From Thermocladium modestius JCM 10088 (GTDB taxonomy: Archaea > Thermoproteota > Thermoprotei > Thermoproteales > Thermocladiaceae): 64,000 bases of DNA. Position 1 is the stretch's first letter. Each line of letters starts with the position of its first letter. Where the stretch lies: positions 62,001 through 126,000 of the forward strand of contig BBBF01000001.1 of NCBI GenBank assembly GCA_001315925.1, written 5' to 3'. The notes beneath the pieces were generated by a model. It was not told the DNA's origin and ran no database searches. It was given only the letters and a program-made list of their open reading frames with translations. Shown here one piece after another: positions 4,720 to 20,954 of the stretch. The translations under genes were made by a program, and so were the position numbers.

Positions 4720-5676
4720 TCTGCGCTAAATCGCCTGCATCAATGGCTAATTTAGGGCCAGGCTTCGACGTGGTGGCCGTGGCCCTTGATGGACCGTTTG
4801 ACGTGGTGTGCCTGGACCTACGGGAAGAGCCGGGCTTGGATGTAGAGGTAATGGGTCCCCCCCACGCATCCCTGGTCCCGCCTCAAGCATCCGAAAACGT
4901 GATTCACCCAGTGTTGACTGGGGCAGCTAGAATCGCCGGGTATGAGGGGGGGGATTCACGGCTAGTATATGGAAGGGAATCCGGCCTGCCAGCGGTTTGG
5001 GGGGGAGCAGCGGCGCGGATGCCGCGGCGTCGGCTTACCTGGCCGCGCGGCTCTTGGGGGGGCTTGGCTTGAGTGATTGGGAGTTGGCTAGGTTAGCGGC
5101 TTTGGGCGAGGTGAAGGCCGCCGGCTCACCGCACTTGGATAACGTGTCCGCATCCTTATTTGGGGGCTTGGTTTTGATCAACGAAGAATTGAAAAGAATA
5201 GATAAAATGGATTTATGGCGATTTCCCATAGTGGTGGTGACCGTCGGGAGCAAGCCCAGCACGAGTTACATGCGCGAGCTATTGCCGGACAAGGTGGATA
5301 TTAGAAGCGCTGTGGAGAATTTGGCTGGATTAGCATCCCTCATCCACGCTGCCCACGTCAGGGATGTAGTGCTCCTCGGGCGAGCGGTCGGCATAGATCA
5401 CTTAGTAACTCCCCCCCACAGGATAAAGGCCTACCCGCACTTCGCGGGCGCCAGGGACGTCCTGCTGCGGCACGGAGCAATTGGGGGTAGGGCTCAGCGG
5501 CGCTGGGCCCTCGATTTTCGGCATATTCAAGGAGGAGCCGTGCCTGGAATGCATTAGGGATGAGATCGAAGGAGCCAATGTGTTTTTAACGCATCCAAGC
5601 AATTCAGGCACATCGTTAATAGACAAGTCGATCATCGACGATAGTCTCCATACGCGGGGGAGAGGCCCAGCGATGA
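4716..5676 (+). CDS. thrB: Homoserine kinase, reading frame broken twice
   Basis: This GHMP-family kinase phosphorylates homoserine before threonine synthase; a thrC gene lies at 11132-12232. The N-terminus reads AKSPASMANLGPGFDVVAVAL, typical of ThrB. The phosphate loop (SGLPA, then GLGGSSGADAAA) is split near 4995-5003: a G is missing before TTT and a G7 stands where relatives need G4. A second shift at about 5483-5487 (G5, G4 expected) separates the last third, which carries the SGAGPSIFGIF motif. If the G5 at 5656 is also read as G4, the gene ends at the TGA at 5674-5676, just before a hairpin repeat. Left as sequenced, no full kinase is made. Confidence 0.85.
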
Positions 5677-17123: not shown

Positions 17124-19563
17124 TTAGGCATTTACCACGGTAGTATCTCCTGATGGATTGATTGCCTCGATTCTTATAACATTATCCGCGCTGTTTTCAA
17201 ACGAATCTATGTGGGATGTTATCAATATCACATCTATGTTGGATGAAATGTCCCTCAACCATGATGCTACTTTGGCTCTATGCTCGGAGTCCAGATGCTC
17301 CGTGGGCTCGTCCATCATCATTAAAGGTATGTGCCCCCCCAATATCACCTTTGCCATAGCATACCTGAATATCAATGCCACTAAGTTCTTCTCTCCCATG
17401 GATAATGCATCGAATGGGATCTCCTTTCCATCGCTTCTTCTCACGTAAACATCGTAGTCTCCATCCATTCTAATATCCACGTAGGACTCCTTATGCCTCA
17501 ACGACGTGAATGACTCCCTTAATTCCTCGTTCATGAAATCTATGAATGTCTTCCTGATCAGCGGTTTCGCGCTTTCTATCGAGTTGTTAATCATGTTCAA
17601 TAAATACAGGGATCCCTTAAGCTTGCTTAATTCATTGTTTGCATTGTTTAGTCTTTTCTTCAACTCATCCACCTCCGCGACAGCCTTTTCTTCGGCATCC
17701 ATCAATAGCGTCAGTTTACCCCTCGCCTCGCTCCTTCTCATGTTTGCATTGTTTAGTCTCTCCTTAATCTTCTCTGCCTTAGTCCTTTGACTTGCGAGTT
17801 CATTTAATTTAGCCTTTAATTCGTCAAGTGAGGCAAGGATTGTCCTCTTCTTTACCTCATCATCCTCTAACCTGGATCTAATATCTTCCTCCTTGTTAGT
17901 ACCATACTTGCTTAATTCGCTCGCTAAGTACCTATATTCCTCGCTCAATCTATCGTATTCATCTACGCTGGCCCCAAGTCTATTCATCTCATCCTTGACA
18001 TATAGATATTCTTGTACACCGGGACTCAATTCGTTGATGCGGTTCTCAATGGCCCTTAGCTCCTCGCCTAGGCGTTGTGATTCCTCGCTTAATCGTTTGA
18101 TCCGCCTCTCTCCGTTCTCGATTACTCCCCCTCTTCTCGGATACCTCACGCGATATTTCTCTTAGCTCTTCCTCATTTCTCTTCGCCCTCGTCTCCGCCT
18201 CTCTCCGTGCAGTCATATTTTCTTTCAGTTTACTTCTCAATTCATCAGCTTTTTCGCTAATTCTCCTCATCAATCATCCGCCTCCCCAATCGTCAACGGC
18301 TTGCCGCAGACTGGGCATGTTTGTCCCCCCCCTTTGTTCTGAGCAATTCTATTTCCATCTCAATGTGTTTCAACTCAGCATTTATTCTAGCCCCCCCCTC
18401 CTCCTCAAGCTCCCTCAGCTTATTATTGGCCTTCTCCGCCTCATAATCAGCCTCCAATTCCTTTTCCTCCAGTTCATTTATTGACTTTCTAAGCTCAGCA
18501 ATCTCCTTTTCCTCCCTACTCAGTTCCTCTTTGATTCTCTCTAGCTCCCGTCTCTTGGCGTCCCTATCCCTCTTGAGTACCTCAGCTTCTTCGAACGTTG
18601 CCCTTAACGACTCCTCCCTCCTCCTCAGCGATTCGTATGCTTCCTTCTCCCTTCTCAGCTCATCCAATCTTCTCGAAATCTCCTCCAAGCGACTCCGTTT
18701 TGCCCTCAACTCCGCGCCGCTTTGCTCGGCCTCCCTTAGCTTTATCCGTAAAGCCTTGATTTCCTCCTCAACTTGATCCAGTTGCGCCTCTAAGGTGTGG
18801 GCTTTTCGTTCATATTCCTCTAGGTTGGCTATTTCCTTCTCCGCCTCATTGAGCTCACTCTCTAGGTTGGCTATTTCCTTCTCTATGGTATCCAATTCGT
18901 GGTTGATGCTCTCCTTCTGTTTCCCTATATCCTCCAGTCTCTTATACATGGATGTCAGTTGCCTGTTCATCTCCTTGGCCTCACCTGTAATTGAATCAAT
19001 GCGGCGCTCCACGTCACGACTTACATCCTTTATCACAGTATCTTGGAGTTTATTCAACGCGTCTATCTTTATCACGGCGTCTAATCTATTCTTGCCTGCC
19101 TTATTCGCTTCCAATACATCGCGGACTTCGCCTTGCCTTATATATAGCAATCTAGCGAATAGATCGACATCCACGCCTAGGATGCGCCCCATCAAGGCCG
19201 TTACCTCCTTATCCCTTGCAGCCACCTTATGAGAACCTTTATCGTCTATCAGGTTAACGTATGTCTGATGGGTATCCGACTTGCTCTGAGATATCACTCG
19301 CTGCACCATGTATTTTCCATCCTCGCCCTCTATGATAAGGCTTATCCTAGCGACCCCCCCCTTCCCAGCTTAACGAAGTTTTGTATTTTGACGCCGCTCT
19401 TGCGAGCCCACTCGCTTCCGTATAATGCGAATGCAATCGCATCGAGGAAGGTGCTTTTTCCCGCCCCCCCATTCAATCCATGAATGAAATTAATGCCCTT
19501 GGTTAGCACTGCCCTACCCGTCAAGATGCTCCTGAAATTGCTCAGCTCAACTTCTCGTATCAT
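17124..19563 (-). CDS. rad50: DNA double-strand break repair ATPase Rad50, several frameshifts
   Basis: This SMC-like ATPase works with Mre11. The N-terminal ATPase lobe (MIREVELSNFRSILTG, P-loop at about residue 30) leads into long Glu/Lys/Arg coiled coil. The zinc hook sits in the middle as TCPVCGKP near 18300-18320, then the return coil, then a C-terminal lobe with LSMGEKNLVAL (signature), MMMDEPTEHLD (Walker B) and TSHIDSF (switch His). The P-loop reads GLNGGAGKST, one Gly longer than the invariant GxNGAGKS/T, because of a C7 at 19464-19470. Frame breaks lie near 19355, 18327 and 18125. The start ATG overlaps the mre11 stop (ATGA). Confidence 0.93.
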
Positions 19564-20847
19564 GCGCGTCCCCCCCCAGCCCCCCCTCGTCCAATCCCAC
19601 CCGCCTCCTGATCAATTTGATGGCTTCATCTATCTTGTCCTCCTCCACCAAGGCCAGTGCTCCATAACTGCATTAACTAAATCCTCCTTCCCGGTCGCAT
19701 CGGTCAAACCACTCAACAGTGCGCTCCTTATGATTTCGTTAATACCGTATCGTTGTAATCCTCTTTCCGCTTTTACCGCCCTTCTATGCAAATCCATACG
19801 TACATCTATTTTCAACGCGCCGCTTTGCTCATTTCTTAACTCCTTCAGCGAATAATCCCTCAGCCTAGCCCCCCCATCATGCATGACTCCCACCAATTCC
19901 ACCTCCACGTATGCATCCCGCACCCCCCCTATCTTATGAATGGCCTCCTCCACTTGCTTCCTAACTTCTCCGGGCTCATCTCCGCTTATCCCCACAATTA
20001 ATCTAATCATTCTGCGAGTACCCCTGATCTCCACGCCCTCGGTCTTGACATCTCCATCTACCTCCAATAGAAGGAATCCCTTCTTATCCTGGCCCTTCTT
20101 GAACCTCAACTCAGTGCCGGCCAATTCATACGTCTCGAACTCGCTTGAGTCCCAGATCTCCAGCGATCCGGCGTAGACGGCCTTCAGCTTTGGGTGCCTC
20201 AATCCATGTTCATGTATATGGCCCAAGGCATAGTATGGCTCGCGCGGTAATTCCTCGTTTATGGCAAAGTAATCCAGATCCGGCATAGGATATTTATATG
20301 GAGTGCCCTTAACGTATTGGTGTAACATAACCACCGTTCGTTCTCCCTTGTACATTTCCTTTATCTTCTCAATAACCTCTCCTCCTCGATCCCCCCCTGG
20401 CCTGCATCCAATGCCCACCACCCTTATATCGCCCAGATCCACGTATTCATCATCCAATAACCTAAGCATGCCCGTGTTGCTGAGCACCCTCAATGGATTA
20501 TCGACCGGATTCAAGGGAGATGCGTCGTGGTTTCCCCCCCGTATTGCAAAAACCTCTATATGGCTATCCCTCAGCTTGGCGAATCCCTCTATTGCAGCCA
20601 TGTACATGGAGGGAGTGGGCCTGGGACTATCGAATACATCGCCTGTTACGAGGACGGCCTCCAAGCCTTTTTCCTCCCTTAACTTCACTAAGTCATCTAC
20701 TACTTGCATGAATGCCTTTTCATAATCCTTAGCTCGCGCCTCCAATCCATACTGCCTTCTCCCCCCCAAGTGTATGTCTGACACATGCGCGAGCAACACA
20801 ACGCGTGTTCTGACTTCCCTTTGATAAACATTCCCATGATTTTCCAT
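19560..20847 (-). CDS. mre11: DNA repair nuclease Mre11, one frameshift near the 3' end
   Basis: This Mn-dependent nuclease forms the Mre11-Rad50 complex. Phosphoesterase motifs in order are HVSDIHLGG, LVTGDVFDS, IRGGNHDAS, VVMLHQYV and YYALGHIHEHG. Two of these, HLGGRRQYG and RGGNHD, carry one Gly more than the normal HLGRRQYG and RGNHD, caused by C7 runs at 20761-20767 and 20534-20540. Near 19672 a missing G shifts the C-terminus out of frame; restored, it reads ALALVEEDKIDEAI and ends at 19560, overlapping rad50. The ATG at 20847 is chosen because CATATATTATC lies upstream at a suitable distance; another in-frame ATG at 20877 is too close to it. Confidence 0.93.
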
Positions 20848-20954
20848 GCGTGGCTTTCGGAAAAACTTTCGGAACATTCATAATAGATAATATATGCCTG
20901 CCATAATGCTCACTAAACGAAAGAAATTAATAAATAGATAATGAATTGACTAAC

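Follow-up and report, generated by a model that had tools for sequence, protein, structure and literature searches.

The locus described here can be set beside two kinds of described system: the archaeal Mre11-Rad50 pair of the Thermoproteales and the homopolymer indels of flow-based sequencing (Ion Torrent PGM, Roche 454). With the former, the two genes of Thermocladium modestius JCM 10088 agree in their pairing, their order, their Pfam domains and the motifs outside G runs, and the only differences are insertions and frameshifts, mostly at G/C runs. With the latter, they share changes that are confined to homopolymer runs and that leave the genes of a draft genome frameshifted; however, only G/C runs of four or more are affected here, mostly by three added nucleotides and with a ceiling of eight. 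T. modestius JCM 10088 has also appeared in print in two related connections: it was listed among archaea with high G4 density (PMC7565180), and GnNiGn repeats were reported from its genome and from those of Methanogenium cariaci JCM 10550 and Thermogymnomonas acidicola JCM 13583 (PMC8044849).

A first-pass annotation of the window, by which we mean the whole 64,000-nucleotide stretch analysed here, had drawn attention to an extra glycine in three catalytic motifs, and every coordinate that it gave is exact. All three motifs are encoded on the minus strand, and each extra Gly lies within a run of exactly seven G, which appears as C7 on the plus strand: the P-loop GLNGGAGKST of Rad50 at 19464-19470, IRGGNHD of Mre11 at 20534-20540 and HLGGRRQYG of Mre11 at 20761-20767. 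In another genome of the same genus (G001), the Mre11 of which is 66% identical, GGGG and the normal motif are found at all three sites, with AATGGGGCTGGG encoding GLNGAGKS, ATTCGGGGCAAT encoding IRGNHD and CTGGGGCGG encoding HLGRRQY. Wherever the motifs were located in further unaffected genomes of the family, they have the normal form as well, and among the relatives searched there was neither NGGAGK nor HLGG.

Judged by their sequences, these genes are true Mre11 and Rad50, since relatives carry the same adjacent pair with normal motifs. The Mre11 open reading frame (19630-20877, minus strand) encodes 415 residues as printed and matches the metallophosphoesterase domain (Pfam PF00149, Metallophos) above the cut-off; its DxH, GD, GNHD, H and GHxH motifs all align, two of them with a false Gly. 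Alignment with nine relatives revealed five single-Gly insertions, all at G7 runs. Besides the two catalytic sites, these are CRPGGDRGG (20391-20397, minus strand; CRPGEK in G001), HKIGGVRD (19923-19929, minus strand; GKIGIS in G001) and HDGGARLRDY (19869-19875, minus strand; HDGYKLRDY in G001).

Damage to Rad50 goes beyond the single Gly that had been noticed, as the list of open reading frames and the comparison with G001 place the gene in several frames. It spans 17124-19563 on the minus strand and corresponds collinearly to a single open frame of 810 codons, counted from stop to stop, in G001. The N-terminal piece matches Pfam AAA_23 and the C-terminal piece matches SMC_N and includes Walker B; these parts line up in order with the protein of G001 but do not share one frame in this assembly. 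By comparison with G001, the frame is lost by a +2 change at a G8 run (19354-19361, minus strand), where the P-loop fragment ends, and changes a second time at another G8 run (18325-18332, minus strand).

To see the wider pattern we relied on a frameshift-aware protein comparison of 13 genes with G001, which was preferred because aligning the window with that genome at the DNA level placed too few runs by itself. Of the 46 one-codon insertions detected in these genes, 39 fall no more than 8 nt from a G/C run of six or more, a neighbourhood that takes up 8.2% of the sequence (binomial p ~1e-35). The same neighbourhood accounts for each of the seven +2 frameshifts and for one +1 frameshift, but for none of the six deletions. 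Away from the runs, protein identity to G001 is high (54-88%), without sign of decay, and the reading frames outside the runs are conserved. Another nine frameshifts, most of them -1, separate the window from G001 at places off long G/C runs (window positions 5481, 6643, 7983, 10733, 18122, 18273, 22731, 23402 and 24361); they are probably other errors of the draft, with true differences being possible. At the gathering threshold, Rfam gives one match in the window, a single tRNA-Arg gene (anticodon TCG) at 990-1069 on the minus strand.

The 16S rRNA gene of the assembly (L043) is affected in the same way. It is 1,580 nt long, compared with 1,506-1,512 nt in three relatives; in a fourth (L042) the gene is 1,679 nt. 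The 20 four-nucleotide G/C runs of the G001 gene are written here as four (10), seven (8), six (1) and three (1), and its six runs of five as five (2) and seven (4), whereas runs of three stay three in 44 of 44 cases and A/T runs are unchanged. The gene is therefore some 70 nt too long because its G/C runs are expanded, and a phylogeny built from this sequence would mislead.

These results bear directly on the choice that the first-pass annotation had offered, namely that either the consensus is wrong or the break-repair complex is dead in this lineage. One reading is that the expansions are real and Mre11-Rad50 is inactivated, and the printed sequence does have insertions at catalytic motifs and a frameshifted Rad50. 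Yet nearly every gene compared has such insertions, as does the 16S rRNA; a cell with a 16S rRNA so swollen and many core genes disrupted would be unlikely to live, and no decay is seen away from the runs. We consider a real inactivation vanishingly improbable and have rejected a dead Mre11-Rad50 on the ground that such insertions recur in almost every other gene that was compared. The first of the two options stands, in the sense that it is the assembled sequence that is wrong, while the second finds no support.

The three motif sites are ordinary members of a class of long G/C runs that extends across the window. There are 207 G/C runs of seven or eight in the 64 kb (76 G7, 93 C7, 17 G8 and 21 C8) and none of nine or more. 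Runs of length seven number 169 and those of length eight 38, against 103, 29 and 17 for lengths four, five and six, such that runs of four to six are depleted; A/T runs fall off normally with length. The same shape is seen over 464 kb from 21 contigs of this assembly. In the whole assembly there are 7,958 isolated G7 runs on both strands, compared with 43 in G001 and 0-340 per genome in the 299 other genomes of a sample of 300 Thermoproteota that included this assembly and left out G021 and G022 (see below). The distribution of run lengths is thus distorted beyond that of close relatives, in an assembly in which protein genes (13 compared) and the 16S rRNA gene alike are affected. No rule of sequence context was found that decides which GGGG is expanded, base frequencies over 12 nt on each side being near-identical for runs of four and of seven.

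Homopolymer slippage has been described in other organisms, and the expansions could in principle be real but tolerated, or corrected by, for example, slippage at G tracts in transcription or translation, leaving functional proteins. Such an account would accord with the conservation of the frames outside the runs. However, it requires about 8,000 changes of nearly equal size, restricted to G/C runs, with a ceiling of eight and extending to rRNA, and the signature is found in a few assemblies of two genera, the closest relatives of which lack it. We therefore regard this account as very unlikely, and it is hard to credit that the organism lives with thousands of genuine G/C-run expansions by means of tolerance or slippage.

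The second genus is Vulcanisaeta, which together with Caldivirga is a sister genus in the source family. The assemblies of V. distributa JCM 11216 (G021, NZ_BBBI01) and V. distributa JCM 11217 (G022, NZ_BBBJ01) contain 4,803 and 3,857 G7 runs, respectively, and the complete genomes G005 and G008 of the same genus contain two and five. The 92 four-nucleotide G/C runs of G005 are written in G021/G022 as seven or eight in 58 cases and as four in 27; of 413 runs of three, 398 keep their length, and A/T runs do not change except in isolated cases. Since the signature is present in the T. modestius assembly, G021 and G022 and absent from their sister genomes, it tracks the assembly or data source and not the lineage. 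The T. modestius assembly (1.92 Mb) has an estimated completeness of 47.6%, and G021 and G022 each of 67%; such low values are to be expected because genes are broken. Two other assemblies, of Vulcanisaeta sp. JCM 14467 (L051) and JCM 16159 (L054), have completeness values of 81% and 63%, are near full-size and lack the G7 signature; in the stretch tested, their runs of two to four match the reference, which implies a cause of low completeness other than G/C-run expansion. The Mre11 genes of V. distributa JCM 11216 and JCM 11217 (L030, L035, L060 and L061) are split or carry a false Gly.

It had been proposed that the insertion would count as tolerated if functional relatives shared the extra Gly, and the extra residues might then be natural variants in an otherwise correct sequence. 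G022 does read RGGNHD, and a few order-level relatives (L033 and L036) read VGGNHD. However, G022 belongs to the affected assemblies and has G7 at a position where its sister genomes read AGGGGTAAT, such that its RGGNHD reflects the same artefact and not tolerance; the VGGNHD of L033 and L036, judged by eye, looks like Gly replacing Arg (VVGGNHD for xxRGNHD) and not like an insertion; and the other two altered motifs are absent from the relatives searched. The probability that these are genuine motif variants is in our view negligible, and we rejected a tolerated insertion because, among relatives, an inserted Gly at one of the sites occurs only in another affected assembly.

We are left with an artefact of assembly, which, judged from the sequences of relatives, is as good as certain to be the source of the extra Gly residues in both Mre11 and Rad50. 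What was observed is a run-length anomaly that relatives lack and that recurs in rRNA and in two Vulcanisaeta assemblies, and a mapping of +3 and +2 changes to the runs; together with G4 at three of three sites in G001 and the same +3 insertions in other genes, these observations bear out the wrong consensus that had been suspected. From these we infer a technical cause, and one common sequencing or assembly pipeline. G/C runs of four or more are often written too long, mainly four as seven (+3) and five as seven (+2). An addition of three within a run of glycine codons gives one extra Gly, or Pro if read on the other strand, whereas an addition of two shifts the reading frame. Any conserved glycine motif that is encoded with GGGG, as are NGAGKS, RGNHD and HLGRRQY, is a natural target. 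A false Gly or a frameshift is found in nearly every gene compared in this draft assembly.

As to the source of the error, the only one of these records documented as an Ion Torrent PGM product is V. souniana BBBK01 (PMC9872577), the prefix of which adjoins those of the affected BBBI01 and BBBJ01. Since this neighbour was sequenced in that way, BBBI01 and BBBJ01 may plausibly come from the same project and platform, and, by the likeness of the signature, so may the T. modestius assembly. However, Ion Torrent PGM under-calls long homopolymers, and its high-frequency indels are mostly single-base (PMC3623719). As the published errors are of that kind, an over-call of three is no textbook error of the platform, and we did not accept a plain Ion Torrent PGM error, the mode here being +3. 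The over-call and the ceiling of eight may come from assembly or later processing. A search of the literature found no published description of this exact error.

The published reports of G runs may belong to the same phenomenon. As in the present assembly, the GnNiGn repeats are long G runs, up to several hundred of them, scattered in distant archaea that are all JCM strains; in contrast to our reading, the authors called the G-run sequences repeats and set them aside, and the words 'homopolymer' and 'sequencing error' are absent from their paper (PMC8044849). By analogy, both these repeats and the G4 density previously reported (PMC7565180) may reflect the same artefact.

At least three archaeal species-representative assemblies carry thousands of false G/C insertions. 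The consequences will be false motif insertions, false pseudogenes, low completeness, a swollen 16S rRNA and inflated G-quadruplex counts. Our finding is a warning about data, without bearing on DNA repair. Conclusions on break repair in this lineage are not warranted, and, as far as sequence can tell, the organism almost certainly has an intact Mre11-Rad50.
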